Shown in pieces: positions 1 to 59,751 of a stretch of DNA of 64,000 bases. The stretch's first letter is position 1; each line of letters begins with the position of its first letter. This DNA comes from Demequina litoralis (GTDB taxonomy: Bacteria; Actinomycetota; Actinomycetes; Actinomycetales; Demequinaceae): contig NZ_JAUHPW010000010.1 in NCBI RefSeq assembly GCF_030418455.1, forward strand, positions 62,001-126,000. Reading direction: 5' to 3'. The notes under the pieces were generated by a model, which saw only the letters and a list, made by a program, of their open reading frames with translations, searched no databases and was not told the origin of the DNA. Made by a program: the position numbers and the translations under genes.

Positions 1-542
1 TGATCGGCGGGTGCGCCGCGCAGCGCGAGCGATGTGAACACCTCGCGCACCTCGTCGCGCGCCCGCAGCGCGGCCATCTGGCCCGCGATGATCCGGTGGT
101 GGCCGGCCTCGGTGAGGGTGACGAAGCGCGTCTCGCGGTGCAGCAGCACGAACGCGAGCCCGTGGCGGCGGGCGGCCTCGACGACGACGGCCGGCGGCGC
201 CGCGTAGCGGGTGCCCAGCTCGAGCACGAGCGCGGCGATGCCCGCCTCGGCGAGGCTCGCGACGAAGCGGGTGAGCCCCGCATCGTCCTCGGGCCAGGCC
301 GTGCCCATGGACAGCAGCAGCTCGCGGCCCTCGAGCATGCGCGCGATGTCGGAGCGCTCGGACGTGTGGACCCAGCGCACCGGCGCCTCGACCGCGGGCC
401 CGCCGACGATGACCTCGGGCAGCCCCGCGCGGAACGCGGGGTCCTCGAGCAGCTCCGTGACCGTGGGCAGGGCCGCGAGCGCGGCGCCGGTCGGACGATG
501 TGTCGGACTGGCGGAGTAATCGCGACGGTCGGAGGGGTCCAT
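1..542 (-). CDS. PucR-family transcriptional regulator, N-terminal part (3' end off the window)
   Basis: The minus strand is open from ATG at 542 to the window edge, giving 180 codons beginning MDPSDRRDYSASPTHR. The segment LPTVTELLEDPAFRAGLPEV followed by VRWVHTSERSDIARMLEGRE matches the N-terminal ligand-sensing domain of PucR-type activators and resembles the full-length regulator at 3638-5155. Regulators of this family normally end in a PucR C-terminal helix-turn-helix, which lies outside the window. A TACGAT box at 549-554 ends 6 nt before the ATG, so the mRNA is probably leaderless. It is divergent from the methylmalonate-semialdehyde dehydrogenase gene, which it may control; that target is inferred from position only. 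Confidence 0.8.
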   Translation of the reverse strand, partial: MDPSDRRDYSASPTHRPTGAALAALPTVTELLEDPAFRAGLPEVIVGGPAVEAPVRWVHTSERSDIARMLEGRELLLSMGTAWPEDDAGLTRFVASLAEAGIAALVLELGTRYAAPPAVVVEAARRHGLAFVLLHRETRFVTLTEAGHHRIIAGQMAALRARDEVREVFTSLALRGAPAD

Positions 543-626
543 CGGCTCATCGTATGTGTGAATCTGAACCTCAACGCACCAGCCCCGCGTCCGGCAGAGT
601 GTCCGGCGCGTGCCGAGAGGAGAGCC

Positions 627-2114
627 GTGAGCCTGATCCGTCACCACGTCGCAGGCAAGGAGACCGGCGCCGGCGAGCGCACCGGCCAGGTCTGGAACCC
701 CGCCACGGGCGAGGTCGTGGGCGAGGTCGCCTACGCCTCCGTCGCGGAGACCGAGGCGGCGATCGCGGCCGCGAAGGCGGCCCTGCCCGGCTGGCGCGCG
801 ACGGGCCTGGTGCGGCGCGCGGACGTGTTCTTCCGCCTGCGCCACCTGCTCGTCGAGCGCCAGGACGAGCTCGCCGCGATCATCACCCGCGAGCACGGCA
901 AGGTGCTGTCGGACGCGAAGGGTGAGATCAGCCGCGGCATCGAGAACGTCGAGTTCGCCGCGGGCCTGGTCCACCACCTCAAAGGCGAGCACTCCGAGCA
1001 GGTCGCGCGCGGCGTCGACGTGCACTCGACCAGGCAGCCGGTGGGCGTCGTGGGCTGCATCACCCCGTTCAACTTCCCCGTGATGGTGCCGCTGTGGATG
1101 GCCGCCTCCGCGATCGCGTGCGGCAACACCGTCGTGCTCAAGCCCTCCGAGAAGGACCCGTCGGCCTCGCTGTTCCTCGCCGCGCTGTTCGAGGAGGCGG
1201 GCCTTCCCGCGGGCGTCCTCAACGTGGTGCACGGCGACAAGGTCGCGGTCGACACGATCCTCGACTCGCCCGACGTGCGCGCCGTGTCCTTCGTCGGCTC
1301 TACCCCGGTGGCGCGCGCGATCTACGAGCGCGGCACCGCGAACGGCAAGCGCGTCCAGGCCCTCGGCGGCGCGAAGAACCACATGATCGTCATGCCCGAC
1401 GCGGACCTCGACGCCGCGGCCGACGCCGCCGTCTCGGCCGCGTACGGCTCGGCCGGCGAGCGCTGCATGGCGATCTCGGTCCTGGTCCCGGTGGGCGAGG
1501 AGACGGCCGATGCGCTGGTCGCCAAGGTCGCTGAGCGGATGGCGACCCTCCGCATCGGTGACGGCACCGACCCCTCCTCCGAGATGGGCCCGCTCATCAC
1601 GCGCGAGCACCGCGACCGCGTCGCCTCGTACGTCACCGGGGCCGCGGCCGAGGGCGCGACCGTCGTGGTCGACGGCGCCGCCCAGGAGTTCGAGGGCGAC
1701 GGCTTCTTCGTCGGCACGTCGCTCGTGGACCACGTCACCCCCGGCATGAAGGTCTACGACGACGAGATCTTCGGCCCCGTGCTGTCGGTGACCCGCGCAT
1801 CGTCCTACGACGAGGCCGTCGCGCTGGTGAACGCCAACGCGTTCGCGAACGGCACCGCGATCTTCACCCGCGACGGCGGCACCGCGCGCGCCTTCGAGAT
1901 GGACATCGAGGTGGGGATGGTGGGCGTCAACGTGCCGCTGCCGGTGCCGATCGGCGCGTACTCGTTCGGCGGCTGGAAGAGCTCGCTGTTCGGCGACTCG
2001 CACATCTACGGACCCGAGTCCATCCACTTCTACACGCGGTCCAAGGTGGTGACGACCCGTTGGCCGGATGCCAGCGAGTCGCAGATCGACCTGGGCTTCC
2101 CGAGCAACCACTAG
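627..2114 (+). CDS. mmsA: CoA-acylating methylmalonate-semialdehyde dehydrogenase
   Basis: The 495-residue product matches MmsA/IolA in length and motifs. These enzymes oxidise methylmalonate or malonate semialdehyde to propionyl- or acetyl-CoA with NAD and CoA. Visible are ITPFNFPVMVPLWM, the FVGSTPVAR cofactor region, the catalytic cysteine in GSAGERCMAIS (about Cys280), and the family tail SFGGWKSSLFGD followed by GPESIHFYTRSKVVTTRWP. The GTG start at 627 has GAGAGGAGAG just upstream; the open frame extends further 5' but that part resembles nothing. The next gene starts 8 nt after the stop, so the two are co-transcribed. With the aminotransferase it would convert beta-alanine or beta-aminoisobutyrate to acyl-CoA. 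Confidence 0.92.
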   Translation: MSLIRHHVAGKETGAGERTGQVWNPATGEVVGEVAYASVAETEAAIAAAKAALPGWRATGLVRRADVFFRLRHLLVERQDELAAIITREHGKVLSDAKGEISRGIENVEFAAGLVHHLKGEHSEQVARGVDVHSTRQPVGVVGCITPFNFPVMVPLWMAASAIACGNTVVLKPSEKDPSASLFLAALFEEAGLPAGVLNVVHGDKVAVDTILDSPDVRAVSFVGSTPVARAIYERGTANGKRVQALGGAKNHMIVMPDADLDAAADAAVSAAYGSAGERCMAISVLVPVGEETADALVAKVAERMATLRIGDGTDPSSEMGPLITREHRDRVASYVTGAAAEGATVVVDGAAQEFEGDGFFVGTSLVDHVTPGMKVYDDEIFGPVLSVTRASSYDEAVALVNANAFANGTAIFTRDGGTARAFEMDIEVGMVGVNVPLPVPIGAYSFGGWKSSLFGDSHIYGPESIHFYTRSKVVTTRWPDASESQIDLGFPSNH

Positions 2115-2122
2115 GAGGGACG

Positions 2123-3563: not shown

Positions 3564-3637
3564 GTAGGGCGCGGCCGAGTCGTGTCCGGGCGCGGCCGAG
3601 CCGTGCGACGGGACGATGCGCGGTGGGGCTCCCGCTC

Positions 3638-6639: not shown

Positions 6640-8102
6640 CCGCCGCGGCCGAGCGGGCGCTCCTCGAGGCCGTCCCCGCCTCCCTGTACGTCGGCGGCGA
6701 GTGGACCGCCGCATCGTCCGGCGCCACCTTCGACGTCCACGACCCGTCCACCGGGGAGGTGCTCGCGAGCATCGCCGACGCCACGCCGGACGATGCGCGT
6801 GCCGCCCTGGACGCGGCCGTCGCCGCGCAGGACGCGTGGGCCGCGACCGCCCCGCGCAAGCGGTCCGACATCCTCCGCCGCGCCTTCGACCTGGTGCGGG
6901 AGCGCACCGAGGACTTCGCGCTGCTCATGACGCTCGAGATGGGCAAGCCGCTCGCGGAGGCGCGCGGCGAGGTCGCGTACGGCAACGAGTTCCTGCGCTG
7001 GTTCTCCGAGGAGGCCGTGCGCATCACGGGCCGCTACGGCGACAACCCCGAGGGCACGGGCCGCATGGTCGTCTCCCAGCGCCCCGTGGGGCCGAGCTAC
7101 CTCATCACGCCGTGGAACTTCCCGCTCGCGATGGCGACCCGCAAGATCGCGCCCGCGCTCGCGGCCGGCTGCACCGTGGTCGTCAAGCCCGCGGCCCTCA
7201 CCCCGCTCACCACGCTGCTGCTCGCGCGCGTGCTCGAGGAGGCCGGCGTGCCCGCGGGCGTGGTCAACGTCATCACCACCACGTCCTCGCGCGCCGTGAC
7301 CGAGCCGCTGCTCGCGGACCCGAGGCTCCGCAAGCTGTCCTTCACCGGCTCCACCGAGGTGGGCCGCACGCTCATGAAGCAGGCCGCCGACGGCGTGCTG
7401 CGCGTGTCGATGGAGCTGGGCGGCAACGCGCCGTTCCTCGTCTTCGATGACGCGGACCTCGACAAGGCCGTCGAGGGTGCGCTCATGGCGAAGTTCCGCA
7501 ACATCGGCCAGGCCTGCACGGCGGCCAACCGCTTCATCGTGCACGCGTCCGTCGCGGACGAGTTCGCGCGCCGGATCACCGCGCGCGTGTCCGCCATGAA
7601 GGTGGGCCGCGGCACCGAGGACGGCGTCGCGATCGGCCCCCTCATCGACGACCGCGCCGTCGCGACCTCGCTCGCGCTCGTGGACGATGCGGTGGCGAAG
7701 GGCGCGCAGATCGCCACCGGCGGCGCGGCCGTCGACGGCCCCGGCACGTTCGTCGAGCCCACCGTCGTCACCGACGTGCAGCCTGGCTCCGAGATCCTCG
7801 CGACGGAGATCTTCGGGCCGGTGCTCGCCATCGCGACCTTCGAGACCGAGGACCAGGCCATCGCCCTCGCGAACTCGACCGAGTACGGGCTCGTCTCGTA
7901 CGCCTACACCCGTGACCTCGCCCGCGGTCAGCGCCTCATCGACCGGCTCGACACCGGCATGATGGGGCTCAACGCCGGCGTGGTCTCCAACGCTGCGGCG
8001 CCGTTCGGCGGCGTCAAGCAGTCCGGCATCGGCCGCGAGGGCGGTGCCGAGGGGATCCACGAGTACCTGTCGACCAAGTACACGCTGATCCCGCACGACT
8101 GA
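6636..8102 (+). CDS. gabD: Succinate-semialdehyde dehydrogenase (NAD(P)+)
   Basis: The 488-residue aldehyde dehydrogenase oxidises succinate semialdehyde to succinate, the second step of GABA use. Visible are ITPWNFPLAMATRKIAPALA, FTGSTEVGRTLM, the general-base glutamate in MELGGNAPFLVFDDADLD and the nucleophile in NIGQACTAANRF (about Cys294). The C-terminal FGGVKQSGIGREGGAEGI is typical of GabD. The ATG overlaps the gabT stop by 4 nt. A second enzyme of the same broad family follows 36 nt downstream, so the operon encodes two paralogues that may differ in cofactor or aldehyde. Confidence 0.92.
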   Translation: MTAAAERALLEAVPASLYVGGEWTAASSGATFDVHDPSTGEVLASIADATPDDARAALDAAVAAQDAWAATAPRKRSDILRRAFDLVRERTEDFALLMTLEMGKPLAEARGEVAYGNEFLRWFSEEAVRITGRYGDNPEGTGRMVVSQRPVGPSYLITPWNFPLAMATRKIAPALAAGCTVVVKPAALTPLTTLLLARVLEEAGVPAGVVNVITTTSSRAVTEPLLADPRLRKLSFTGSTEVGRTLMKQAADGVLRVSMELGGNAPFLVFDDADLDKAVEGALMAKFRNIGQACTAANRFIVHASVADEFARRITARVSAMKVGRGTEDGVAIGPLIDDRAVATSLALVDDAVAKGAQIATGGAAVDGPGTFVEPTVVTDVQPGSEILATEIFGPVLAIATFETEDQAIALANSTEYGLVSYAYTRDLARGQRLIDRLDTGMMGLNAGVVSNAAAPFGGVKQSGIGREGGAEGIHEYLSTKYTLIPHD

Positions 8103-9636: not shown

Positions 9637-10071
9637 ATGAACCGACGCATCGTCCGCGGCGCCCTCGCCGGCGCCCTCCTCGCTCTCGTCCCCGCGATCT
9701 CCGCCTGCTCGACCGGCGCCGACGCCCCCGCGGCCGAGGTCGCCGAGTCCGTGGCCTTCGACGCCTCGCACGTGTCCGCCGCGGCGTTCGCGGTCGCCGC
9801 CGCGGAGGAGGGCGTCACCATCGTCGACGTCCGCACCCCCGCGGAGTACGCCGAGGGCCACCTGCCCGGCGCCGTCAACATCGACGTCTCCGGCGGCGAC
9901 TTCGAGGCGCAGGTCTCCGCGCTCGACCCGGAGGCCGAGTACGCGGTCTACTGCCGCTCGGGCAGCCGCTCGCGCGCCGCGATCGACATCATGACCGGCG
10001 CGGGCGTCGAGCACACCGTGGGCCTCGAGGGCGGCATCGGCGCCTGGACGGGCGACGTCGTCACCGGCTGA
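9637..10071 (+). CDS. Rhodanese-domain lipoprotein (thiosulfate/persulfide sulfurtransferase)
   Basis: The 144-residue protein has a lipoprotein signal (lipobox ISAC, Cys24) and one rhodanese domain: VTIVDVRTPAEYAEGHLPGAVNIDV, then the active-site loop CRSGSRS with the catalytic cysteine at about 106. It would act outside the membrane, moving sulfane sulfur. A CsoR/CstR-type palindrome covers its promoter, the usual arrangement for persulfide-controlled sulfurtransferases. The ATG at 9637 is chosen because the signal peptide starts there and TATAGT lies 7 nt before it. The start codon region MNRRIV contains a copy of the dispersed CGCATCGTCC 10-mer. It converges with the TDT channel gene, stop codons 8 nt apart. 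Confidence 0.88.
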   Translation: MNRRIVRGALAGALLALVPAISACSTGADAPAAEVAESVAFDASHVSAAAFAVAAAEEGVTIVDVRTPAEYAEGHLPGAVNIDVSGGDFEAQVSALDPEAEYAVYCRSGSRSRAAIDIMTGAGVEHTVGLEGGIGAWTGDVVTG

Positions 10072-10079: not shown

Positions 10080-11072
10080 TCAGCCCTCGGCGGCCAGCAG
10101 CTCGCCGCGGGAGACCGCGACCGCGGTCCGCCAACCCAGCCCGAGCACGAGCAGGGTCCCCGCCGCGAGGGCCGCGACCCCGACCCACGCCGCGAACGCC
10201 GTGGCGCCGGATTCGTACGCCGCGAGCAGCGCGGAGGCCGCGGCGGCGAGCGGGAAGGTGTAGGCCCACGCGCTGACCGCGAACGGCACCTTGCGCAGGT
10301 AGGCCGACTGGGCCGCGAGCAGCGCGAGCTGGAAGATCACCACGCCGAGCAGCATCATCGCGAGCGGGTCCTCCCACGAGCCGCCCAGGCGCACCCACGA
10401 CAGCGACGCGACGGCGGGAGGCGCGACCAGGATCGCGAGCGTGGGAGCGAGCCGCCACGGCATCACGCCCTCGACGAAGAGCCTGCTGAGCACCACCGGC
10501 AGGAGGCCGACCCAGAACACCGCGCCGACGCCGAAGAAGTACCAGCTCACCTCCCCGGGTGCGTGCGTGACGCCCGCGAGCGGGGCCACGAGGTTGCCCA
10601 CCACCGGGATGAACCACGCGGGGTGCACGTGGATCGCCTGGACGCGCGCGTCCGCGATCCACGTGCGCATCACCAGCACCGTCACGACGAACTGCAGCAC
10701 CGCGCCCGGCCACCACAGCGCCGCCGAGGCCGTCTCCGAGATCGGCAGGAACGCGGTCGCGAGCACCATCATCGACACCGGGATGGTCGCGACGAACGCC
10801 GCCTTGACCGGGTGCGTCCACTCGGCGACGGCGGCCCGCGGGTGCCGCGCCACCTTCGCCCCGTACGCGGCCACGGCCGCGGCGAGCACCGCGAGGCCGA
10901 GCCAGGCGAGCGCATCGTTCACCGGCAGCGCGAGGCCGAAGGCCTCGTCCGCCCGGAACCACGCGACGGCGGTGCCGCCGATGCCCATGACGACCGCGAA
11001 GACGCCGACGGGCAGGTGGGCCAGGCTCGGCGCGGGCGGGGCGGACGATGCGGCGGCGGGCTCGGGTGTCAT
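10080..11072 (-). CDS. TDT/SLAC1-family channel (TehA/Ssu1-like exporter)
   Basis: The 330-residue integral membrane protein has about ten hydrophobic segments and resembles the tellurite-resistance/dicarboxylate transporter family (MAE1, TehA, SLAC1, Ssu1), as in HLPVGVFAVVMGIGGTAVAW and WWPGAVLQFVVTVLVMRTW. The family includes sulfite exporters, dicarboxylate transporters and anion channels, so sequence alone does not fix the substrate. A CsoR/CstR-like operator just upstream and a rhodanese convergent to it favour a sulfur oxyanion such as sulfite; that is inference. The ATG at 11072 has GAGGAGGAACC before it. The open frame extends to 11537 but that part is unconserved DNA with the operators in it. 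Confidence 0.82.
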   Translation of the reverse strand: MTPEPAAASSAPPAPSLAHLPVGVFAVVMGIGGTAVAWFRADEAFGLALPVNDALAWLGLAVLAAAVAAYGAKVARHPRAAVAEWTHPVKAAFVATIPVSMMVLATAFLPISETASAALWWPGAVLQFVVTVLVMRTWIADARVQAIHVHPAWFIPVVGNLVAPLAGVTHAPGEVSWYFFGVGAVFWVGLLPVVLSRLFVEGVMPWRLAPTLAILVAPPAVASLSWVRLGGSWEDPLAMMLLGVVIFQLALLAAQSAYLRKVPFAVSAWAYTFPLAAAASALLAAYESGATAFAAWVGVAALAAGTLLVLGLGWRTAVAVSRGELLAAEG

Positions 11073-11147: not shown

Positions 11148-11376
11148 GGGCCCATGGTCCCGGAATCTCGGGCCGCGCGCGGGGTCGGTGGGGCCGGCGT
11201 GTCGCGCGGGCGTGTCGGCGTCGCGGTCCGTGGGTGCCGGGACGGCGTCCGTCAAGGCGTGCGGGGCGGTTTCCGGGGCCGCCGCGCCTCCGCATCGTCC
11301 CGCCGGAAGCCGCCGAAAACCCCTGGTCGCCATACCCCAAGGGGTATGAAATGCCTGGTAGTGGGCCCATGGTCCC
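11148..11376. repeat. Two copies of GGGCCCATGGTCCC in the TDT-adhE intergenic region
   Basis: The gap between the TDT gene and adhE (11073-11481, 409 bp) holds no gene. Besides the two palindromes listed separately it contains an exact 14-mer direct repeat at 11148-11161 and 11363-11376, 215 bp apart, and one copy of the dispersed 10-mer at 11291. The 14-mer is a near-palindrome centred on CCATGG and could be a second regulator's site; this is speculative. TACCGT at 11415-11420 is a possible adhE -10 box. Confidence 0.4.
11331..11348 (+). promoter_or_regulatory. CsoR/CstR-like operator upstream of adhE
   Basis: CATACCCC-AA-GGGGTATG is a palindrome with perfect 8-bp arms. The right arm begins TATGAA (11345-11350), a possible -10 box directing transcription toward adhE with a 5' leader of about 125 nt. 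It is too far from the TDT start (259 bp) to serve that gene directly. Confidence 0.65.
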
Positions 11377-14324: not shown

Positions 14325-14410
14325 GGCCGGGCGGGTGGCGCGGCGGGGTAGGCGGGGGACGATGCGCGTGCGGGTCCGCGGGGGTGTGCGGGTTTGCCAT
14401 GATGGGGGCC

Positions 14411-14695
14411 ATGAACCGCCGCATCGTCCCCGCCGCCGTCACCGCCGCCGCGCTCGCGGCCCTGCTCTCCGGCTGCGGCGACGCGGACCCGCGCGAGGCC
14501 ATCGCGTCCGCGACCGCGGGCGTCAGCAGTGCGATCGACAAGGCCAACGAGATCAAGGACGAGGCCTCGCAGCGCGCCGAGGAGATCCAGGAGAAGGCCG
14601 AGGACGCCAAGCAGAAGATCGACGACGCCAGGACGCAGGTCGAGGACGCGGTCGGCTCCGCGAAGGACACGCTCGACGCCGTCACGGGCGAGTAG
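14411..14695 (+). CDS. Small coiled-coil lipoprotein of unknown function
   Basis: The 94-residue product has a lipoprotein signal (lipobox LLSGC, Cys22) followed by a highly charged, alanine-rich helix with heptad character (ANEIKDEASQRAEEIQEKAE and onward) to the C-terminus. I do not recognise a family; the layout recalls small structural envelope lipoproteins. The start MNRRIV has the dispersed 10-mer in its codons. CATGAT lies 6 nt before the ATG, suggesting a leaderless mRNA; the DUF2207 gene at 19762 has nearly the same upstream sequence. It precedes prfB by 48 nt but prfB has its own promoter. Confidence 0.7.
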   Translation: MNRRIVPAAVTAAALAALLSGCGDADPREAIASATAGVSSAIDKANEIKDEASQRAEEIQEKAEDAKQKIDDARTQVEDAVGSAKDTLDAVTGE

Positions 14696-15940: not shown

Positions 15941-16141
15941 CGCCTCGCCCGCGTGGACAGGTAAACGGGACGATGCGCGGGACCCGGCACGGGACGATGC
16001 GCAGGATAGTTGGCGCTTTGCGAACTTTTGGTGTGTGACGTACCGGACACGCCCGGCGCGGCGCGCCTCCCGGGCGGCTCCGGGACCCGTTCCTACGATG
16101 CAGACGTGGTGCGGGTCCTACCCCTCGCGCCCGTGCACATC

Positions 16142-19690: not shown

Positions 19691-19761
19691 CGCGGGACGA
19701 TGCGCGGCCCGGGCGGGCGCGTGGCGTCACCGTCGCATCGTCCACCCGGCATGATGGGGCC

Positions 19762-21594
19762 ATGGTCCGCATCGTCCTGTCCCTGCTGATCACCCTGGTA
19801 GCGGCGTTCACGCCTGCCGCCGCCCACGCCGCGGCGCCCGACGGCGGGCGCAGCGTCGAGCGCTGGGTCGCGACGTACGCGCTCCAGGAAGACGGCTCCG
19901 CACGCGTGAGCGTGGAGATCGACTTCGACTTCGGGAACGAGCCGGGTCACGGGCCGTACTGGCAGCTGCCCATCCGCCAGGGTTACGACGCCGACTGGGA
20001 CCGCCTGTACGACATCACGGACGTGAGCGCCTCGTCGCCGAGCGGCGCGCCCGCGAAGGTGTACCTCGAGGAGGGGCAGTACTGGCTCGTGGTGCGCGTG
20101 GGTGACGAGGGCATCGGCGACGTCGACGGCGTGCAGACGTACGTCCTCGAGTACACGGTCCACCACGTGATGAACGAGACCACCGCCGACGAGACGGACA
20201 CGGGCGAGGCGGGCGACGAGTTCTACTGGAACGCGATCGGCGACGGCTGGGAGACGCCGGTCCGCGACGCGAGCGTGACGGTGGTGGGGGCGGCCGACGT
20301 CGTCGACGCGGCGTGCTGGGCCGGGCCGTCCGGCGCGGACACGGCGTGCGACGGCGCGACCGTCACCGGCACGGACGCGACCTTCACCCAGGCGTCGCTC
20401 GAGCCGGGCGAGCCCTTCACCGTCGCGGTGCTCTATCCGTCCGGCACGTACGACACCGCGCCCGCGCTCACCGAGAGCAGCGACCTCGCGCACGCGTTCC
20501 GGCTCAACGGCTGGACCGTGGGCGGCTTCCTGGTGCTCCTGCTCGGCGGGCTCGCGGTGCTGGTGCGGCGCATCCGCGGCGCCGGCGCCGACGTCGAGTA
20601 CGCGGACTTCACCCCGGGCGTCGGTCCCGCGGTCGGGGACGATGCGGCGGTGCGCCGCCGCGACAAGCGCGCGCCGGTCGCGGTCGCGTTCGCGCCGCCG
20701 GACGGGCTGCGTCCGGGCCAGCTCGGCACGCTCATCGACGAGAAGGCGGACACGCGCGACGTCACCGCGACCATCGTCGACCTCGCGGTGCGCGGCTACC
20801 TCGTGGTCGAGGAGGCGGGGGAGAAGGACTACCGGTTCGTCAAGCAGCGGGAGGCCGACGAGGGCCTGTTCCCGTACGAGCAGATGCTCTTCGACGCCGT
20901 CTTCGAGGGGCGCTCCGCGGTGACGCTCGGGGAGCTCAAGACCACCTTCCACGCGGACATGCAGGCCGTGCAGAAGCAGCTGTACCGCAACGTGACGAAC
21001 CACGGCTGGTTCCGCGGCAACCCCTCGCACGCACGCGGCGCATGGGCGGGCGCGGGGGTCGCGCTGCTCGTCGGCGGCGGGTTCGCGACCCTGGCCGCGG
21101 TGATGCTCGGCACGACGATCGCGCTGGTCCCGCTCGCGTTCGTGCTGCTCGGCCTGGTGGTGCTCGCCACCACCAGCGTCGCGCCGGCGCGCACCGCCGA
21201 GGGCTCGCGCATCCTCGCGCAGACCCGCGGCTTCGAGCTCTACCTCGACAAGGCGGAGGCGAACCAGCTGCGCTTCGAGGAGGGCCATGACATCTTCAGT
21301 CGCTACCTGCCGTACGCGATCGCGTTCGGCGTGACCGAGCAGTGGGCCAAGAAGTTCGAGCAGCTCGCCGCGCAGGGCGTGCGCCTCGCGGAGCCCACCT
21401 GGTACCGGGGGGCGGCCTACGGGATGTTCTGGATGCACGCGGCGGGCTTCGGCCACCGGATGGACCAGTTCGCCACGCTCGCGGGCGCGGCCATGAGCGC
21501 GCCGACCCCCGGTTCCTCCGGCGGCTCGGGCTTCGGCGGCGGGGGCGGCTTCTCCGGAGGCGGCGGAGGAGGCGGTGGCGGCGGCGGCTGGTGA
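19762..21594 (+). CDS. DUF2207 membrane protein with Gly-rich tail
   Basis: The 610-residue protein has a signal peptide (cleavage after AHA, about 25), an extracellular beta-rich domain of about 220 residues, a transmembrane helix (about 250-270), a cytoplasmic winged-helix-like region, two more helices (about 430-475) and a glycine/serine C-terminus (SGFGGGGGFSGGGG). This is the DUF2207 architecture found in many bacteria; its biochemical role is not established. The gene has a CATGAT box 6 nt before the ATG and a dispersed 10-mer inside codons 3-5 (MVRIV). It converges with the MMPL gene across the paired 36-nt element. Confidence 0.85.
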   Translation: MVRIVLSLLITLVAAFTPAAAHAAAPDGGRSVERWVATYALQEDGSARVSVEIDFDFGNEPGHGPYWQLPIRQGYDADWDRLYDITDVSASSPSGAPAKVYLEEGQYWLVVRVGDEGIGDVDGVQTYVLEYTVHHVMNETTADETDTGEAGDEFYWNAIGDGWETPVRDASVTVVGAADVVDAACWAGPSGADTACDGATVTGTDATFTQASLEPGEPFTVAVLYPSGTYDTAPALTESSDLAHAFRLNGWTVGGFLVLLLGGLAVLVRRIRGAGADVEYADFTPGVGPAVGDDAAVRRRDKRAPVAVAFAPPDGLRPGQLGTLIDEKADTRDVTATIVDLAVRGYLVVEEAGEKDYRFVKQREADEGLFPYEQMLFDAVFEGRSAVTLGELKTTFHADMQAVQKQLYRNVTNHGWFRGNPSHARGAWAGAGVALLVGGGFATLAAVMLGTTIALVPLAFVLLGLVVLATTSVAPARTAEGSRILAQTRGFELYLDKAEANQLRFEEGHDIFSRYLPYAIAFGVTEQWAKKFEQLAAQGVRLAEPTWYRGAAYGMFWMHAAGFGHRMDQFATLAGAAMSAPTPGSSGGSGFGGGGGFSGGGGGGGGGGGW

Positions 21595-24456: not shown

Positions 24457-25041
24457 GTGGACGCGCGCATCGTCAAAACCAGGAGACGCCTGCAGGAGGC
24501 GCTCTTCGCGCTCGCGCGCGAGCGCGGCGTCGACGACGTGTCGGTGAGCGACATCGCGGCGCGTGCCGGGGTCAACCGCAGCACGTTCTACCAGCACTAT
24601 TCCGACAAGGAGACGCTGCTGGCCGACGCGCTCGACCTCTTCGCGGAGGAGGCCGGCGCGAGCCTCGACTCCATCGAGTTCGGCTCCGACGAGCCGCCGG
24701 AGGCGCTCGTGGTGTTCCTCCGCCACATCGAGCAGAACGCCGACCTCTACGCGCGCGTGTTCACCGAGCCCGGCTACGGCGCGGTGCTGTCCCGGCTGCG
24801 GGCGAACGCGCGCGACGCGATCCGCGACCTCGCCCCGGCGGCCGAGCCGATCGTGCCGCGCTCGGTCCCGGTCGACGTGGTCGCCGCCGGCATCACGGGC
24901 CTCGTGCTCGGCGTGATCGGGGAGTGGCTCACCATGGCCGACCGCCCGCGGGCGGACGATGCGGCGACCTGGATCTGGCGCATCGTCGCCGGCTTCCCCT
25001 CGGTGCGCGCGGGCAACGCCCCCGAAACACCCGCGGGCTAG
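24457..25041 (+). CDS. TetR-family repressor, divergent from the MMPL exporter
   Basis: The 194-residue regulator has a TetR N-terminal helix-turn-helix (SVSDIAARAGVNRSTFYQHYSDKETLL, about residues 27-53) and a helical ligand domain ending in the WLTMADRPRADDAATWIWRI region of the AcrR/YcdC-like group. GTG at 24457 fits best: CACAAT (24445-24450) ends 6 nt before it and MDARIVKTRRRLQEA is the usual opening helix. Repression of the adjacent exporter, relieved by its substrate, is the likely role. Confidence 0.85.
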   Translation: MDARIVKTRRRLQEALFALARERGVDDVSVSDIAARAGVNRSTFYQHYSDKETLLADALDLFAEEAGASLDSIEFGSDEPPEALVVFLRHIEQNADLYARVFTEPGYGAVLSRLRANARDAIRDLAPAAEPIVPRSVPVDVVAAGITGLVLGVIGEWLTMADRPRADDAATWIWRIVAGFPSVRAGNAPETPAG

Positions 25042-33046: not shown

Positions 33047-33111
33047 TGGCCGGTTCTCGCCGTCGCCCCGGGACGGGACGATGCGCGCGACGCGCCAGGG
33101 TGGGAGACGTG

Positions 33112-35170: not shown

Positions 35171-36034
35171 GTGCTGACTCTCCCCGAAACCGTCGACGTC
35201 CACGCGAAGGCCGCGCACGCCAAGGCGACGCTGTCGCGCACCCCGGTGCGGCTCATCGTGTCCGCGATGCTCGCGGGCATGTGGATCGGTGTCGGCGACG
35301 TCCTCATGTGGTCGGCCGCGGGCCCGCTCCACGTCGACGGCAACCCGTTCGAGAAGCTCGTCGCGGGAAGCGTCTTCGCCGCGGCGCTCACCATCGTCGT
35401 CTTCGCGGGCTCGGAGCTCGCCACCAGCGCGATGATGATCCTGCCGCTCGGCGCCGTGCGGCGCACCATCTCGTGGCTGCGCGCCGGCGGGGTGCTGCTG
35501 GGGATCTTCTTCTCCAACATGCTCGGCGCGTTCGCCTTCGCGTGGGTGATCATCCAGACCGGCATCCTCGCGCACGGGCCGGCGGGGGAGTTCGCCGTCG
35601 ACACGCTCGCGGGCAAGATCGCGCACACCCCGGCCGAGCTGTTCTGGCGCGGCGTCATGTGCAACGTGCTCGTGTGCGTCGCGATCTGGGCCGCCGCGCG
35701 CCTCAAGAACGAGGTCGCCAAGGCCGTCATCATCTTCTGGGGCGTGCTCGCCTTCATCGCCGCCGGCTTCGAGCACGTCGTCGCGAACATGACCACGTTC
35801 GCGATCGGCCTCCTCAGCGGCGGCGACGTGACGTGGGGCGACTTCGCCACCAACATGACCTTCGTGGGGCTGGGGAACCTTGTGGGCGGCGCCATCGTCA
35901 TCGGCCTCGCCTACGCCTACGTCGCAGGGAAGCTCTCGAAGGACGATGCGGCGGGCGCCGAGGAGCTCATGGAGGAGCCGGAGCCCGTGGTCGCCAACGC
36001 GGAGGCGGACCTCGTCACCGCGCCCGGCCGCTGA
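35171..36034 (+). CDS. Formate/nitrite-family (FNT) channel
   Basis: The 287-residue protein has six membrane helices and FNT signatures: FWRGVMCNVLVCVAIW and KAVIIFWGVLAFIAAGFEHVVANM, with the central pore histidine at about 202. The family forms pentameric channels for formate, nitrite, hydrosulfide or lactate. The substrate is not clear from sequence. With adhE in the same window, formate from mixed fermentation is plausible; hydrosulfide cannot be excluded. GTG at 35171 lies 6 nt after TACCGT (35159-35164), so the mRNA is probably leaderless. A soluble tail of about 35 residues is acidic. Confidence 0.87.
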   Translation: MLTLPETVDVHAKAAHAKATLSRTPVRLIVSAMLAGMWIGVGDVLMWSAAGPLHVDGNPFEKLVAGSVFAAALTIVVFAGSELATSAMMILPLGAVRRTISWLRAGGVLLGIFFSNMLGAFAFAWVIIQTGILAHGPAGEFAVDTLAGKIAHTPAELFWRGVMCNVLVCVAIWAAARLKNEVAKAVIIFWGVLAFIAAGFEHVVANMTTFAIGLLSGGDVTWGDFATNMTFVGLGNLVGGAIVIGLAYAYVAGKLSKDDAAGAEELMEEPEPVVANAEADLVTAPGR

Positions 36035-36043: not shown

Positions 36044-37117
36044 CTACCGCCCCATCGCGACGCGCTCGGGGCAGTCGAAGGGGTCGCGCGCGGCGAGGCC
36101 CACGCGGTTGAGGTACGCGATCACGATCCCGTAGGACTCGAGCAGCGAGGTCTCCGTGTAGGGGATCCCGAGCGTCGCGCAGTGCTCGCGCACGATCTCC
36201 CTGGCCCGCGCGAGGTGCGGCCGCGCCATCGACGGGAACAGGTGGTGCTCGATCTGGAAGTTTAGCCCGCCCATGAGGATCGACATCGCCCAGCCGCCGC
36301 GGATGTTGCGGCTGGTGAGCACCTGCTTCGACAGGAAGTCCAGGCGCTCGTCGCGGCCCACGATCGCCATGCCCTTGTGGTTGGGGGCGAACGAGGCGCC
36401 CATGTACACGCCGAAGACCGCCATCTGCACGCCCACGAACGCGAAGGCCATGCCCAGCGGCAGGAACAGGAAGACCGGCACGAGGTAGAGCCCGAAGTGC
36501 AGCGCGATGGAGGGCAGCTCGATCCAGCGCTGGCGGCGCGTGCCGCCGGTGACGAGCGACGCGATCGAGCGGTAGTGGAGGTTGAGGCCCTCGAGCGTGA
36601 GCAGGGGGAAGAAGAGCCAGCCCTGGCGCTGCGTCAGCCAGCGCAGCGGGCCCCGGGCGCGCGCCGCATCGTCCTCGAGGAAGGAGATGGTGTCGCGCTC
36701 GATGTCGGGGTCCTTGCCGACGCGGTTGGGGTTGCCGTGGTGGCGCGTGTGCTTGGTCATCCACCACTGGTGGCTGATCCCCACGATCACGGTCGACAGG
36801 AGGCGGCCCAGGCGGTCGTTCGCCGGGCCCGACGCCAGCACGGTGCGGTGCGAGGCCTCGTGCCCCAGGAACGCGACCTGCGTGAGCACGATGCCGAGGC
36901 CCGCCGCGATGAGCAGCTGGAACCACGAGTCGCCCAGCAGCACGAAGCCGGTGACGAGGCCGCCGAGCGCGAGCGCGAGCGCGGCGCCGAAGCCGGCGTA
37001 GAAGCCGTAGGCGCGGCGCATGAGGCCGGTGTCGCGGATGGTCGCGGACAGCTCGGCGAACGACGAGGTCATGCGGTTGACGGGGAACGATGCGGGCAGG
37101 CGCGGTGCGTCTGTCAT
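36044..37117 (-). CDS. Membrane fatty-acid desaturase
   Basis: The 357-residue integral membrane desaturase carries the three di-iron histidine boxes HEASH (86-90), HTRHH (123-127) and QIEHH (288-292, in FQIEHHLFPSMARPHL). The Q-x-x-H-H third box is that of front-end/delta-type acyl desaturases, close to actinobacterial linoleoyl-CoA desaturase-like proteins. It introduces a double bond into membrane acyl chains using oxygen and ferredoxin-type reductant. Its neighbours suggest no operon. Confidence 0.9.
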   Translation of the reverse strand: MTDAPRLPASFPVNRMTSSFAELSATIRDTGLMRRAYGFYAGFGAALALALGGLVTGFVLLGDSWFQLLIAAGLGIVLTQVAFLGHEASHRTVLASGPANDRLGRLLSTVIVGISHQWWMTKHTRHHGNPNRVGKDPDIERDTISFLEDDAARARGPLRWLTQRQGWLFFPLLTLEGLNLHYRSIASLVTGGTRRQRWIELPSIALHFGLYLVPVFLFLPLGMAFAFVGVQMAVFGVYMGASFAPNHKGMAIVGRDERLDFLSKQVLTSRNIRGGWAMSILMGGLNFQIEHHLFPSMARPHLARAREIVREHCATLGIPYTETSLLESYGIVIAYLNRVGLAARDPFDCPERVAMGR

Positions 37118-40599: not shown

Positions 40600-40662
40600 C
40601 AGGCCGCCGCATCGTCCCCGCGCCATGACCCGCGCGAAGCCGGCGCGCGTACGATGGTCGGC

Positions 40663-42709: not shown

Positions 42710-43488
42710 GGCTCACCGTCGTCGGCTCGGCCGGCTCCACCGCGGGCCCGGACTCTCCCGCCTCCTGCTACCTCGTCGAGGCGGAGGATGCGGACGGGCG
42801 CACGTGGCGCATCGTCCTCGACCTCGGCTCGGGCGCGATCGGCCCGCTCCAGCGCTACTGCGACCCCGCCCGCGTCGACGCGGTGGTCGTGTCGCACGGC
42901 CACCCCGACCACTGCGCCGACCTGGCCGCGCTGTCCGTCCTGCGCCGCTACGGCCCCGCCAAGGACGACGGTCTCCCGCCGCTGCCGCTCTACGGCCCCG
43001 CGGGTATCGACGACCGGATCATGGAGATCGCCGGCGGCGGCGACCGCGGCGACCTCGAGCCCTTCGCCTACATGCCCGTCGACGCGGACGATGCGGTCGA
43101 GGTGGGCCCCTTCTCGCTCACCTTCGCGCGGGCCTGGCACCCGGTCCCCGCGAACGCCGTGCGCGTCGCGGGACCGTCCGCCGCGAACGGCGAGGCGACG
43201 CTCGTGTTCACGGGCGACACCGACCGCTGCGACGAGGTGCTCGAGCTCGCGCGCGACTGCGACGTGCTGCTGGCCGAGGCCGGCTGGGCGCACTCGCGCG
43301 TCAACCCCGAGGGCATCCACATGAACGGCACGCAGGCGGGCACGCTCGCACGCGACGCCGGCGTGGGCGAGCTCGTCGTCACGCACGTGGCGTCCTGGGT
43401 GGACCCCGCGCCGACCCTCGAGCTCGCGGCCGTCGCCTACGGGGCGCCGGTAGCGCTCGCGGCCCCGGGCCGCACCGTGGTGCTCTGA
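42706..43488 (+). CDS. MBL-fold metal-dependent hydrolase
   Basis: The 260-residue metallo-beta-lactamase fold protein has the metal motif [13 protein letters not shown] and later ligands in [11 protein letters not shown] and [11 protein letters not shown]. It resembles the cyclic-nucleotide phosphodiesterase/RNase Z-like MBL proteins found between murI and rph in actinobacteria. The substrate is unknown. Codons for Asp-Asp-Ala at 43087 use GAC GAT GCG, the dispersed motif. Confidence 0.85.
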
Positions 43489-44382: not shown

Positions 44383-44994
44383 GTGGCACGCCTCGCGATC
44401 GCGACCCACAACGCGCACAAGGTCGGGGAGATCTGGGGCATCCTCGCCCCGGCCGTCCCCGGCCTGGCGCGCGAGGACGTGGCCTCCGCCGGCGAACTCG
44501 GCGCCCCCTCGCCGGTCGAGGACGGCGTCACCTTCGAGCAGAACGCGCTCATCAAGGCCCGCGCGCTCGCCGCATCGTCCGGCCTGCCCGCCATCGCGGA
44601 CGACTCGGGAATCACGGTCGACGTCATGGGCGGCGCACCGGGCATCTTCTCGGCGCTGTGGTCGGGCCGCCACGGCGCGGACCGGGAGAACCTCGAGCTG
44701 CTGCTCGCGCAGATGGCGGACATCCCCGACGAGCACCGCGGCGCGGCGTTCGTCTGCGCCGCCGCCCTCGTCACGCCGGACGGCGGCGAGCTGGTGGTGA
44801 TCGGGCGCATGCCCGGCCGCCTCACGCGCGAGCCCGCCGGCGAGTCCGGCTTCGGCTACGACCCGATCTTCGTCGCCGAGGGCGAGTCCGTCACCAACGC
44901 GGAGCTCGACCCGGCGCGCAAGAACGAGATCTCGCACCGCGGCCGCGCGTTCCGCGAGCTCGCGCCGCACGTCGCGGCGGTGCTCGGGGGCTGA
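44383..44994 (+). CDS. rdgB: XTP/dITP diphosphatase (RdgB/HAM1)
   Basis: The 203-residue pyrophosphatase removes non-canonical purine nucleoside triphosphates. Seen are IATHNAHKVGEI, FEQNALIKARALAASSGLPA followed by IADDSGITVDVMGGAPGIFS, and ESGFGYDPIFV with ARKNEISHRGRA. The GTG at 44383 is the first codon of the conserved strand and sits 2 nt after the rph stop, a pairing widespread in bacteria. Confidence 0.94.
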   Translation: MARLAIATHNAHKVGEIWGILAPAVPGLAREDVASAGELGAPSPVEDGVTFEQNALIKARALAASSGLPAIADDSGITVDVMGGAPGIFSALWSGRHGADRENLELLLAQMADIPDEHRGAAFVCAAALVTPDGGELVVIGRMPGRLTREPAGESGFGYDPIFVAEGESVTNAELDPARKNEISHRGRAFRELAPHVAAVLGG

Positions 44995-44996: not shown

Positions 44997-45533
44997 GTGG
45001 GCGAGGCGGACCGGCCGGTGCTCCCGGACCACCTCGCGCCCGGCCTGCGGGCCGTCTTCTGCGGCACGGCGCCCGGCCTCGCCTCGGCGGCCCGCGGCCA
45101 CTACTACGCCGGCCCCGGCAACCGCTTCTGGGAGTACCTGGCCGCCGCGCGCATCGTCCCCGTGGCGCTCGCGCCGGAGGACGATGCGCGGGTCACCGCG
45201 CACGGGATCGGCCTCACCGACCTGGTGAAGACCATGGCGCAGAGCCACGACCGCGGCCTGCCCTACGACGTGCCCGCGCTCGCCGCGAAGGTGGACGCGC
45301 ATCGTCCCGCCTGGATCGCGTTCACCTCGAAGGAGGCCGGGACGCAGGCCGCGCGGTGGCTCGGGCTGCCGCGCCCGGGCTTGGGAGCGCAGGACTGGAC
45401 GTTCGCGGGCGCGCGGGTCTTCGTGCTGCCCAGCCCGAGCGGCCGCAACCAGGGCCGCGCGTCCTACGACGGACGCGCGACCCGGCTCGCGTGGTGGGCC
45501 GAGCTGGCGGAGCTGCTGCCGCCCGTCAGCTGA
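44997..45533 (+). CDS. mug: Mismatch-specific uracil/thymine DNA glycosylase (Mug/TDG-like)
   Basis: The 178-residue product has the Mug fold motifs FCGTAPGLASAARGHYYAGP followed by GNRFWEYL, GIGLTDLVKTMAQSHD and the base-flipping loop LPSPSGRNQGRASY. Motif 1 has GTAPG in place of the GINPG of E. coli Mug, so the Asn is replaced, as in other actinobacterial members; activity against G:U or G:T pairs is therefore not certain. The GTG start is 2 nt after rdgB, making rph-rdgB-mug one operon of nucleic-acid quality control. The 3' end overlaps the convergent NUDIX gene by 8 nt. Confidence 0.88.
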   Translation: MGEADRPVLPDHLAPGLRAVFCGTAPGLASAARGHYYAGPGNRFWEYLAAARIVPVALAPEDDARVTAHGIGLTDLVKTMAQSHDRGLPYDVPALAAKVDAHRPAWIAFTSKEAGTQAARWLGLPRPGLGAQDWTFAGARVFVLPSPSGRNQGRASYDGRATRLAWWAELAELLPPVS

Positions 45534-46618: not shown

Positions 46619-46763
46619 TCGCCGTGTCGGGGCGGCCGCCCCCCTCCTTCGTCGCAACCGGCGTACCCGGCCCGGGCGGTCTGGCGGGACCAGGGACGAT
46701 GCGCGCGGGGCCGGATTCGTACGCCGGTGCGAGCGTGCAGCTGGGACGATGCGCGGGTCGGGC

Positions 46764-50522: not shown

Positions 50523-50675
50523 GGGGACCTCCCTCGACGTCGAGTGGAACTTTTCCTGCGCCTGGTGCGCATTACAGGAAGCCTTTCATCGGACGATGCG
50601 CGGGTCAAGGATTCTGCCGGTGCCGGGCGGCGTTGTCGGCGCGGGTCTTCCGCGGCATGCGGTAGCGTCCCTGTC

Positions 50676-53633: not shown

Positions 53634-53765
53634 GTCACTCCTCGGGTAGGGGACTCACTGGGCCGCAACCTCCGATGCGGGCACGTTGTTCCCGTGCGGC
53701 CCGGTTTCCAGGGTATTCATCGTTCGGCGCGTGCGCGCGGGCGGACGGATGGACGATGCGCGGGC

Positions 53766-56013: not shown

Positions 56014-56037
56014 CGCATCGTCCGGCGGGACGATGCG
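56014..56037. terminator. Terminator built from an inverted pair of the dispersed 10-mer
   Basis: CGCATCGTCC (56014-56023) and GGACGATGCG (56028-56037) form a perfect 10-bp stem with a GGCG loop, between the convergent OpuC ATPase and DUF4126 genes. Confidence 0.8.
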
Positions 56038-56053
56038 GCGGCGCGGGGGCGGG

Positions 56054-56816: not shown

Positions 56817-56821
56817 GGTGA

Positions 56822-56898: not shown

Positions 56899-56939
56899 AT
56901 CGGCCCTCGCGAAGAGGGCCACGGAAGAGTATACCGGGT

Positions 56940-57557: not shown

Positions 57558-57628
57558 GGCCCTCACCTTACCGAGGGCCGCGGACACGGGTGCGGGCCGC
57601 CGGGCCCAGGGACGATGCGGCGCCCGCC

Positions 57629-57678: not shown

Positions 57679-57695
57679 GACAACCGGGAGGGCGC

Positions 57696-58052: not shown

Positions 58053-58936
58053 CCGCCATCATCGAGGCCACGGGCCTCAGCCGCCGCTTCGGCGACGTGC
58101 ACGCCGTCGACGGCGTGAGCTTCGAGATCCAGGAGGGGTCCATCTGCGGGCTGCTGGGCCGCAATGGTGCCGGCAAGACCACGCTGATGAACCTCGTGAC
58201 CGGCCAGGACTTCCCGAGCTCGGGCGCGGTGCGCGTCCTCGGCGAGGACCCCGTCGAGAACGCCCGGGCGCTCACGCGCCTGTGCTTCATCAAGGAGTCC
58301 CAGAGCTACCCCGACGCGTACCGCGGGCGGCACGTGCTCGCCATGGCGCCGCGGTTCTTCCCCCACTTCGACGCGACGCTCGCCGCGCGCCTGGTCGAGG
58401 ACTTCGGCGTGCCGGTGAACCGCATGATCAAGAAGATGTCGCGCGGGCAGCGCTCGGCGATCGGGGCGATCGTCGGCATCGCGTCGAGGGCCGAGCTCAC
58501 GCTGCTCGACGAGCCGTACGCCGGGCTCGACGCGGTCGCGCGGCACATCTTCTACGACCGCCTGCTCGAGGACTACGCCGCCCACCCGCGCACCATCGTG
58601 CTGTCGACCCACCTCATCGACGAGGCCGCGGACCTGCTCGACCACGTCCTCGTCATCCACGAGGGCCGGATCGAGATCGACGCGGCCACCGAGGACCTGC
58701 GCGGCACCGCCTCGACGCTCGTCGGCCGCAAGGCCGACGTCGAGGCCTTCGTCGCGGGCCGCGAGGTGCTCGCCCGGGAGCACATCGGCGGCATCGCCTC
58801 GGCGACCGTCGCGGGCCTGAGCGGCGACGACAGGGCGCGCGCCGCATCGTCCGGCCTCGAGGTGACGCCGGTCTCGCTCCAGCAGCTCATCGTGCGCCGC
58901 ACCGGCGGCGCGACCCCCGCAGAGGAGGTGGCGTGA
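58049..58936 (+). CDS. ABC ATPase under GntR control
   Basis: The 295-residue ABC ATPase has Walker A GRNGAGKTT, a non-canonical signature MSRGQRSAIGAIVG in place of LSGGQ, Walker B LTLLDEPYAGLDA and the switch histidine in VLSTHLIDEAADLLDHV. YtrA-linked ATPases of the EcsA/YtrB kind share this altered signature. A C-terminal domain of about 80 residues follows. It pairs with the membrane protein encoded next. Confidence 0.87.
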   Translation: MTAIIEATGLSRRFGDVHAVDGVSFEIQEGSICGLLGRNGAGKTTLMNLVTGQDFPSSGAVRVLGEDPVENARALTRLCFIKESQSYPDAYRGRHVLAMAPRFFPHFDATLAARLVEDFGVPVNRMIKKMSRGQRSAIGAIVGIASRAELTLLDEPYAGLDAVARHIFYDRLLEDYAAHPRTIVLSTHLIDEAADLLDHVLVIHEGRIEIDAATEDLRGTASTLVGRKADVEAFVAGREVLAREHIGGIASATVAGLSGDDRARAASSGLEVTPVSLQQLIVRRTGGATPAEEVA

Positions 58937-59697
58937 TGGCCGCCGTCGCCGACACCGCCCGACCCGAGGCACTCGTGCCCGCCGGCCGTCGCATCTGGAA
59001 CGTGGTGCGCCTGCATGCGGCGAACCCATGGCCGTCGCTGATCCTGCCGTGGATCGTGCTCGTCTCGATCCACGCGCTGACGTGGACCATCTGGGCGATC
59101 ATCAGCCACTATGCGGGACCTGGCATCGAGGAGGACGCGTTCCGCTACGCCGGCGGCGTGAGCTGGCTCGTCATCTACATGATGATCATCGCGATCCAGG
59201 CGATGAACGCGGGCTTCCGCTTCGCGCTCGGGTTCTCGTCGACGCGGCGCGAGTACTACCTCGGGACCGTGGCGTTCTTCGCGATCATGGCCGTGGTCTT
59301 CGGGCTCGGGCTCGGGCTCCTCGCCCTCGTCGAGCGCGCCACCGGCGGGTGGGGGCTGAACGGCTCGTTCTACGCCCCGGCCTACCTGTACGACGAGCCC
59401 TTCGGCGTGGTCGCGTTCCACTACTTCGCGCTCTACCTGCTGTTCACGTCGATGGGCGCGATGATCGGCGCGCTGTTCGTGCGCTGGAAGGCCTACGGCC
59501 TCTACCTCTACTTCGGTGCCCTGGCGCTCGCCCTCGTGGCGCTCGTGTGGTGGCTGCTCGACGCGGGCTGGGGCCCGGTGGCGGACTTCTTCACCGGCAA
59601 CCCGCTCGCGGTGGTGATGGCGTGGACGCTGCCCGTGAGCCTCGCGTTCGGGGTGCTCGGATGGGCCGTGCTGAGGCGGGCGCCCGCGCGCGGCTGA
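58936..59697 (+). CDS. ABC-associated membrane protein
   Basis: The 253-residue protein has about six membrane segments (SLILPWIVLVSIHALTWTIW, VSWLVIYMMIIAIQAMNAGF and others). It has no assigned family and is probably the permease of the GntR-ABC system. ATG 58936 is preferred over GTG 58933 because GAGGAGG ends 7 nt before it. The system may respond to cell-envelope stress, as YtrA systems elsewhere do; that is inferred. Confidence 0.78.
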   Translation: MAAVADTARPEALVPAGRRIWNVVRLHAANPWPSLILPWIVLVSIHALTWTIWAIISHYAGPGIEEDAFRYAGGVSWLVIYMMIIAIQAMNAGFRFALGFSSTRREYYLGTVAFFAIMAVVFGLGLGLLALVERATGGWGLNGSFYAPAYLYDEPFGVVAFHYFALYLLFTSMGAMIGALFVRWKAYGLYLYFGALALALVALVWWLLDAGWGPVADFFTGNPLAVVMAWTLPVSLAFGVLGWAVLRRAPARG

Positions 59698-59713
59698 GCC
59701 TCCCATGGCGACC

Positions 59714-59751
59714 GGGCCCGCGCATCGTCCCCCGGGACGATGCGCGGGCCC
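59714..59751 (+). terminator. Terminator built from an inverted pair of the dispersed 10-mer
   Basis: GGGCCCGCGCATCGTCCC (59714-59731) and its exact complement (59734-59751) form an 18-bp palindrome 16 nt after the GntR-ABC operon. The 10-mer core is in each arm. Confidence 0.85.

Follow-up and report, generated by a model that had tools for sequence, protein, structure and literature searches.

What accounts for 42 copies of one ten-base word, GGACGATGCG, in a single stretch of an actinobacterial genome? The stretch, here called the window, comprises 64,000 bases of Demequina litoralis, a member of the Demequinaceae within the Actinomycetes, and belongs to a genome (G000) of 22 contigs and 3,024,998 bases. 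We found the word to be strongly enriched throughout this genome, to be confined, within the order, to the genus Demequina and to occur there in two main spellings that differ by one base. Taken together, the pattern makes it quite probable, in our judgement, that the 10-mer is a DNA uptake sequence with an origin in Demequina separate from that of the uptake sequences of Neisseriaceae and Pasteurellaceae.

Abundance, placement and anatomy of the word

An earlier note on this DNA had described about 42 copies of the 10-mer and about 50 of the 9-mer GACGATGCG, spread singly and almost evenly over both strands from position 279 to 59744, nearly half of them between genes, with about one or fewer expected from base composition. 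Exact counting returned 42 and 50 copies and the same first and last coordinates, with 22 sites of the 10-mer on the plus and 20 on the minus strand. In 100 dinucleotide shuffles of the window (72% GC), the mean was 1.05 copies and the maximum 6, and none reached 42. The share between genes also held, as 19 of the 42 copies lie outside gene calls, although only 5,979 of the 64,000 bases are non-coding. The word is not palindromic (its reverse complement is CGCATCGTCC). Genes were called with an ad hoc codon-model caller and not with a standard annotator, giving a coding fraction of 91.6% in a 304-kb sample of the same genome; this sample consists of the window and twelve 20-kb stretches, eleven spaced along contig C1 and one around comEC.

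The complete genome (3.02 Mb) contains 1,564 copies of GGACGATGCG (793 forward, 771 reverse; 517 per Mb), and the word read backwards, used as a control, occurs five times (2 forward, 3 reverse). A third-order Markov model predicts 4.3 copies in the 304-kb sample, which holds 152. Genic copies number 90, compared with 7.4 +/- 2.3 (maximum 14) in 100 synonymous-codon shuffles of all called genes, and the 61 intergenic copies compare with 0.27, 0.87 and 4.25 expected under Markov models of orders 2, 3 and 4. The genome-wide comparison that the earlier note had proposed thus places the count far above both codon and Markov models, confirming that the enrichment is real and is driven neither by codon usage nor by composition.

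Copies in or touching non-coding DNA make up 62 of the 152 sampled, with such DNA accounting for 8.5% of the sample, and the densities are 2.39 per kb in non-coding DNA versus 0.32 per kb in genes. Convergent gene pairs enclose the highest density (18 copies in 3,983 bases), with 31 copies in 13,305 bases between tandem genes and 12 in 6,274 between divergent ones. Non-coding and genic densities are 1.33 and 0.46 in genome G034, and 0.56 and 0.27 in D. sediminis (G026), where gene calls are weakened by split frames. Gaps between copies have a coefficient of variation of 1.11 (139 gaps), which is near random and agrees with the single, unclustered spread reported for the window. The two strands are roughly balanced over the 13 stretches of G000 (77 and 75), and so they are in two further sets of 20 stretches each, one from D. 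sediminis (60 and 69) and one from G034 (114 and 108). No clear polarity or regional clustering of copies appeared in the samples of these three genomes; the halves of D. sediminis show a marginal strand imbalance (28/44 and 32/25).

In the G000 sample, one-mismatch variants are over-represented at bases 1, 2 and 10 of the word, and at base 3 for C only (19 versus 6.0 expected). At bases 4 to 9, no variant exceeds about 1.7-fold of expectation and several are absent, from which we take CGATGC as the constant core. With the first base of the word numbered 0, the consensus of non-coding copies extends to G at -1 (0.76) and to GG at +12 and +13 (0.76, 0.69). The downstream GG is also present in genic copies (0.70, 0.65), at both positions in D. 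sediminis and at +13 in G034. Genic sense copies mostly lie in the frame that reads DDA (42 of 44) and antisense copies in the one that reads RIV (30 of 46). Beyond these preferences, the flanks of separate copies are unrelated to one another, and genic copies can be traced by substitution within alignable sequence.

The earlier note had also pointed to inverted pairs at gene ends. Two such window pairs do form perfect hairpins, with folding energies of -28.7 to -40.6 kcal/mol (z -1.75 to -4.92), and most copies do not belong to close pairs at all. Among close pairs (at most 40 bases), inverted ones account for 7 of 10 in G000, 6 of 6 in G026, 4 of 6 in G034 and 4 of 5 in other loci of the second spelling described below, that is, 21 of 27 over four samples and a small share of all copies. 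In that second spelling, two inverted copies overlap at G013:C5:4896-4911 to form the palindrome CGCATCGGCCGATGCG; G034 has one pair with this offset of 5, and the other loci of this spelling have two. Genes at window positions 9637, 14399 and 19762 open with an antisense word and read RIV near their start (MNRRIV, MVRIV); an enrichment at gene starts was considered and dropped as not significant (5 of 83 versus 2.9 expected, 304 kb).

Dialects of the word and their orthologous sites

We compared the spellings across 44 Demequina genomes, using a cut at about 400 copies that we chose ourselves. The comparison of relatives, which the earlier note had named as a possible refutation, left its reading standing, with 36 of the 44 genomes carrying the word or its one-base variant in quantity. 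The spelling GGACGATGC (A dialect) is present in 929-1,864 copies in 16 genomes (G000, G002, G004, G010, G016, G019, G021, G022, G024, G025, G026, G028, G030, G059, G061, G063). Another 20 genomes carry mainly GGCCGATGC (C dialect), in 409-2,018 copies (G014, G060, G064, G023, G034, G009, G013, G029, G015, G033, G036, G065, G018, G031, G007, G035, G062, G020, G006, G017), and eight hold neither spelling in quantity (G001, G003, G005, G008, G011, G012, G027, G032). The second spelling came to light when GCCGATGC emerged unprompted as the top 8-mer in G007, G009, G014, G015 and G023. A secondary excess of the C spelling occurs in five A genomes (G021 664, G061 488, G010 487, G002 465, G019 447). 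G021 thereby holds both spellings in quantity (1,294 GGACGATGC and 664 GGCCGATGC), possibly as a genome in transition between dialects.

Base 10 adds a finer level of spelling. The main A clade has G there, as do G015, G013, G034, G029, G033 and G031; G014, G023 and G026 have C or G, and G009 has mostly T, preceded by G. Genomes with the A spelling form two separate clades in a MetE phylogeny of 26 genomes: one has nine members, and the other, G004 with G063, sits among genomes with neither spelling. Judged by these sequences, the spellings are dialects of one motif with the fixed core CGATGC. Outside the family the 10-mer is at background level: 184 members of the order reach at most about 18 copies of GGACGATGCG per Mb (from 39 copies in a genome of 2.2 Mb) versus 517 in G000, and at most 144 of GGCCGATGC per Mb versus up to 747 in G014, the per-Mb values for these members being computed from rounded genome sizes. 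The GGCCGATGC density of G017 (132 per Mb) lies inside this out-of-genus range. Within the order, the word is thus confined to the genus.

For orthologous sites, we aligned G000 with four A-dialect genomes (G022, G030, G016, G004) and three C-dialect genomes (G014, G023, G034) over the window orthologues, anchored on the racemase gene at 41888-42709, and over the com and pilus regions. With 114 to 153 of the 171 9-mer copies unaligned in each genome, largely since the relatives were covered in part, the comparison draws on a minority of copies. Three A genomes retain G000 copies of the word more often than they retain 9-mers in general: G022 keeps 40 of 57 (29/39 genic, 11/18 intergenic; all 9-mers 0.49, 0.45), G030 keeps 34 of 42 (25/30, 9/12; all 9-mers 0.50, 0.41) and G016 keeps 18 of 38 (13/27, 5/11; all 9-mers 0.30, 0.24). 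Toward the C genomes, the A word is retained at 1 of 18 sites in G014, 1 of 20 in G023 and 2 of 26 in G034, with other 9-mers at 0.13-0.18. At 11 distinct sites the other eight bases are intact in a C genome, and base 3 is C in six of them, A in three and T in two. The six C-swapped sites lie at window positions 35941, 45299, 53751 and 58844 and at two places in the pilus region. As a null, we took all other alignable 9-mers with eight bases intact between five A and three C genomes, in which A is replaced by C in 828 of 28,464 cases (2.9%); the observed 6 of 11 correspond to p = 2.5e-7.

If the word drives coding sequence, an excess of DDA and RIV would be expected in A genomes and of ADA and RIG in C genomes. 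Compared with dipeptide expectation, G000 (A) has 82 DDA (63.8 expected) and 49 RIV (33.9), with ADA at 116 (114.7) and RIG at 27 (32.1). The C-dialect genome G034 has 221 ADA (151.2) and 60 RIG (41.4), with DDA at 74 (83.5) and RIV at 41 (35.7). Tripeptide use thus leans the same way as the dialect, the effects for DDA and RIV in the A genome being modest (z 2.3 and 2.6).

Table 1. Window copies of GGACGATGCG, with strand, setting and further particulars.
Position	Strand	Setting	Particulars
279..288	-	coding	
1796..1805	-	coding	
3611..3620	+	non-coding	
6710..6719	-	coding	
6788..6797	+	coding	
7682..7691	+	coding	
9646..9655	-	coding	at gene start, reads RIV
11043..11052	+	coding	
11291..11300	-	non-coding	
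14357..14366	+	non-coding	
14420..14429	-	coding	near gene start
15968..15977	+	non-coding	
15992..16001	+	non-coding	
19695..19704	+	non-coding	directly 3' of smpB
19734..19743	-	non-coding	
19768..19777	-	coding	at gene start
20637..20646	+	coding	
24954..24963	+	coding	
25548..25557	-	coding	
26896..26905	-	non-coding	
29870..29879	+	coding	
30596..30605	-	coding	
33076..33085	+	non-coding	
35941..35950	+	coding	orthologous site GGCCGATGC in G014, G023 (C dialect)
36665..36674	-	coding	
40608..40617	-	non-coding	
42808..42817	-	coding	
43086..43095	+	coding	
44571..44580	-	coding	T at dialect base of orthologous site in G023
45150..45159	-	coding	
45179..45188	+	coding	
45298..45307	-	coding	orthologous site GGCCGATGC in G014, G023
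46694..46703	+	non-coding	
46744..46753	+	non-coding	
50591..50600	+	non-coding	
53751..53760	+	non-coding	orthologous site GGCCGATGC in G034
56014..56023	-	non-coding	left arm, inverted pair between convergent genes
56028..56037	+	non-coding	right arm of inverted pair with 56014..56023
57610..57619	+	non-coding	
58843..58852	-	coding	orthologous site GGCCGATGC in G034
59721..59730	-	non-coding	left arm, 17-pair perfect hairpin
59735..59744	+	non-coding	right arm of hairpin with 59721..59730

Pilus and competence genes, and the readings of the word

Genome G000 encodes a type IVa pilus cluster on contig C1, in which Pfam matches identify PilB with MshEN, PilT, PilC, N-methyl pilins, a prepilin peptidase and PilM. 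A PilO-like protein scores just below its Pfam cut-off; PilN and PilX were assigned by position alone, as neither protein matches any Pfam family. The comEA gene, whose product has SLBB and HhH domains, adjoins comEC, whose product has Competence and lactamase-like domains. A ComEC match was found in 57 of 59 genomes examined, including 36 of 37 from Demequina; among the 44 Demequina genomes, 43 have an HhH match above cut-off and all 44 have type IV pilin signatures. ComEC is split in G026 and G008. The D. sediminis locus (L124, G026) has comEC and pilB in two frames each and much of its sampled sequence left non-coding; since pilB is split as well as comEC, sequencing frameshifts are likelier than real loss. 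In the pilus clusters of G059 (L136) and G031 (L116), the minor pilins and the proteins in the PilM, PilN and PilO positions are very unlike those of other species at the locus, as if these parts had been exchanged as a block.

The earlier note had proposed the word as a candidate uptake-like or chromosome-marking sequence, and the pattern across genomes favours the uptake reading: dialects around a constant core, base swaps at orthologous sites, a type IV pilus cluster and the comEA-comEC pair all point the same way. In the mechanism that we propose, a surface receptor with sequence specificity, probably a type IV pilin, would bind the core CGATGC together with flanking GGA or GGC and a terminal G or C. 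The pilus would then retract, ComEA and ComEC would transfer one strand to the cytoplasm, and homologous recombination would swap out the resident allele. As word-bearing DNA would enter more often, copies arising by point mutation would spread and be kept by molecular drive, most easily where no protein is harmed. A shift in receptor preference would slowly rewrite the copies in a genome and give rise to clade dialects. Receptor binding, preferential uptake and drive are steps that we infer, and a role for the pilus and com genes is suggested by their presence. We prefer an uptake sequence because it would explain together the equal strands, the isolated copies, the tolerance of any neutral place, the more than 1,000 copies, the dialects and the pilus and com genes, a set of properties for which, to our knowledge, only uptake sequences offer a precedent.

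A receptor was sought among the pilins, ComEA and the pilus proteins. A single orphan pilin gene sits apart from the pilus cluster. Among 30 hand-chosen candidate loci of 6-9 kb, a metE-like frame is its neighbour in 26 and a frame resembling acetyltransferases in 20 (both Pfam-checked in G030). In a 16-row alignment of its product, two cysteines are invariant and a tryptophan nearly so; its profile returned type IV pilins and no ComP entry among 22 PDB matches. The column that best separates the dialects has I in 11 of 11 A and V in 12 of 13 C sequences; it lies within the pilin helix and is probably phylogenetic. In ComEA, eight columns distinguish A from C sequences; most lie in the variable N-terminal region, and we read these columns as phylogenetic as well, with no convincing dialect residue. 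The orphan pilin resembled a ComP-style receptor at first sight but is only a lead, as it fails to track dialect and was not found everywhere, and we do not name a receptor. MetE differs little between G000 and G022 (L083, L100) and G030 (L085) despite the extreme divergence of their orphan pilins. The orphan-pilin alleles of G063 and G027 group with a distant clade; allele exchange at this gene is suggested.

A number of results weigh against an uptake function. Neither the mean identities of eleven pilus proteins, nor the ComEA columns, nor the orphan-pilin tree singled out a protein whose variation matches dialect: the tree does not mirror the dialects, the orphan pilin of G000 and G022 is very unlike that of their sister G030 (branch 1.5) with all three sharing a dialect, and the motif-rich genomes G013, G031, G010, G019 and G061 gave no strong orphan-pilin match outside the pilus cluster, their metE loci not having been read. 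Six of the eight word-poor genomes (G001, G003, G011, G012, G027, G032) keep an unbroken ComEC match, and the machinery therefore does not predict the word. Type IV pilus genes are present in Cellulomonas and relatives, too. Of 80 loci, we tested 65 (those of at least 15 kb; 55 outside Demequina, 10 within); the 55 contain 16 and 27 copies of the two spellings versus 32.6 and 40.5 expected, and no shared word resembling GGxCGATGC emerged from them. The distant A-dialect genome G004 retains 2 of 18 sites, no better than other 9-mers (0.20, 0.15). Given a change at base 3, C is found in 6 of 8 cases versus 35% expected (p about 0.025), and because this excess is the weaker one, the strength of the swap test comes largely from the loss of A. 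The word-free genomes G001, G003 and G011, when pooled, are also high in DDA (35 versus 26.0, z 1.8), so that a DDA excess alone proves little. A terminator scan of window positions 55001-60500 (5.5 kb) found no hairpin with a T-run. Apart from this, 21 of the 55 non-Demequina loci and none of the 10 Demequina loci show an excess of the palindrome ATCGCGAT, possibly another genome-wide word in Cellulomonas and relatives.

The dialect swaps could follow from any sequence-specific reader whose preference varies by clade. The word may be bound by an abundant protein that structures the nucleoid or takes part in segregation, with clade-varying specificity, and be kept for chromosome organisation; an intracellular reader of this kind would likewise be expected to produce genome-wide spread and a non-coding excess. 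We consider this unlikely in view of the near-random spacing, the lack of clear polarity or regional clustering in the three sampled genomes (the halves of G026 being marginally unequal) and the roughly 1,500 non-palindromic sites that turn over between sister species, a number and turnover unusual for such proteins. A mutation or repair bias, for example one linked to methylation, would also act most in non-coding DNA and could keep a word over-represented in the manner of HIP1, a hugely abundant palindromic word of cyanobacteria with an unsettled role. Such a bias is an improbable source here: it would need to differ by a single base from clade to clade and to alter amino-acid use as well, the Demequina word is not palindromic, and its flank preference reaches to about +13, beyond a typical methylase target.

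A Chi-like recombination site or a KOPS-like translocation guide would suit a short, abundant and asymmetric word, but Chi and KOPS are strongly strand-polar and Chi is not known to be enriched in non-coding DNA as this word is. With strands balanced genome-wide, in the window and in the G034 and G026 samples, neither the Chi-like alternative raised in the earlier note nor a KOPS-like guide found support, and we hold both to be very improbable. The two hairpin-forming window pairs and the prevalence of inversion among close pairs would fit a dispersed mobile element, a REP-like repeat or a family of transcription terminators, to which we give even less credence: most copies are not in close pairs, the 5.5 kb scanned lack a T-run, and a mobile-repeat origin is rejected by the unrelated flanks and by genic sites that appear by substitution in alignable sequence. 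The inverted pairs may be used secondarily as terminators. As for a by-product of GC-rich composition and codon usage, the window is indeed 72% GC, codons for DDA and RIV can spell the word, and out-of-genus genomes mostly hold more copies of the word than of its reversed control. The synonymous shuffles (7.4 versus 90), the intergenic Markov models (0.27-4.25 versus 61) and the order-wide counts refute this explanation, and we assign it practically no weight.

Relation to known systems

The Demequina word shares with HIP1 the extreme over-representation of a short word; unlike palindromic HIP1, it is non-palindromic and has one-base dialects, of which we know none for HIP1. Similar to Chi and KOPS, it is a short asymmetric chromosomal word, and it differs from both in being balanced on the two strands.

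Uptake sequences are, according to the available part of a 2025 paper, known only in two proteobacterial families, Neisseriaceae and Pasteurellaceae (PMC12616744). Transformation of the actinobacterium Micrococcus via Flp pili is described in a 2019 review of how type IV filaments take up DNA, and its Micrococcus account, in the portion available, mentions no uptake word (PMC6370729). Searches of the openly licensed literature (no bioRxiv preprints) showed, among the matches listed, no report of such a motif for Demequina, Actinobacteria or Actinomyces; the letters of the word returned no title on a bacterial genome motif among the matches listed, and no test of preferential uptake for this word was found in that literature. 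We lean towards regarding the word as a third origin of self-DNA uptake, the first in a Gram-positive lineage, served by a new pilus-borne reader unrelated to ComP, with two or more major dialects (GGACGATGC and GGCCGATGC, finer at base 10) acting as partial isolation barriers between species. If true, this third independent case, in a monoderm actinobacterium, would make self-selective transformation a repeated evolutionary outcome and one that needs no outer membrane. Demequina, with 44 genomes, two main spellings and a pilus locus, would then be a clean system for following the joint change of reader and word and for asking if the dialects keep species apart. In practical terms, laboratory constructs tagged with the word might help to make Demequina transformable.

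The DNA uptake sequence (DUS) of Neisseriaceae occurs on both strands with a non-coding excess and is read by the minor pilin ComP. As described in the available parts of two sources, its sequence is GCCGTCTGAA (PMC6370729), and such sequences span about 10-12 bases, number hundreds to thousands of copies, some of them in inverted repeats, and form clade dialects around a constant core (PMC12616744). The Demequina word likewise has 10 bases, more than 1,000 copies on both strands with a non-coding excess, some inverted repeats and dialects around a constant core. Unlike DUS, it has an unrelated sequence, few inverted pairs and a Gram-positive actinobacterial host, and it is a candidate uptake word known from sequence alone. 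The uptake signal sequence (USS) of Pasteurellaceae, in the available part of the 2025 paper, has the core AAGTGCGGT followed by AT-rich blocks downstream, a genome-wide density and dialects of the Hin and Apl types (PMC12616744). The Demequina word differs from USS in being GC-rich, with a weak GG at +12/+13. It resembles USS in its genome-wide density, its dialects and its coding copies with peptide footprints, for which the USS work of Findlay and Redfield in 2009 reportedly provides a precedent.

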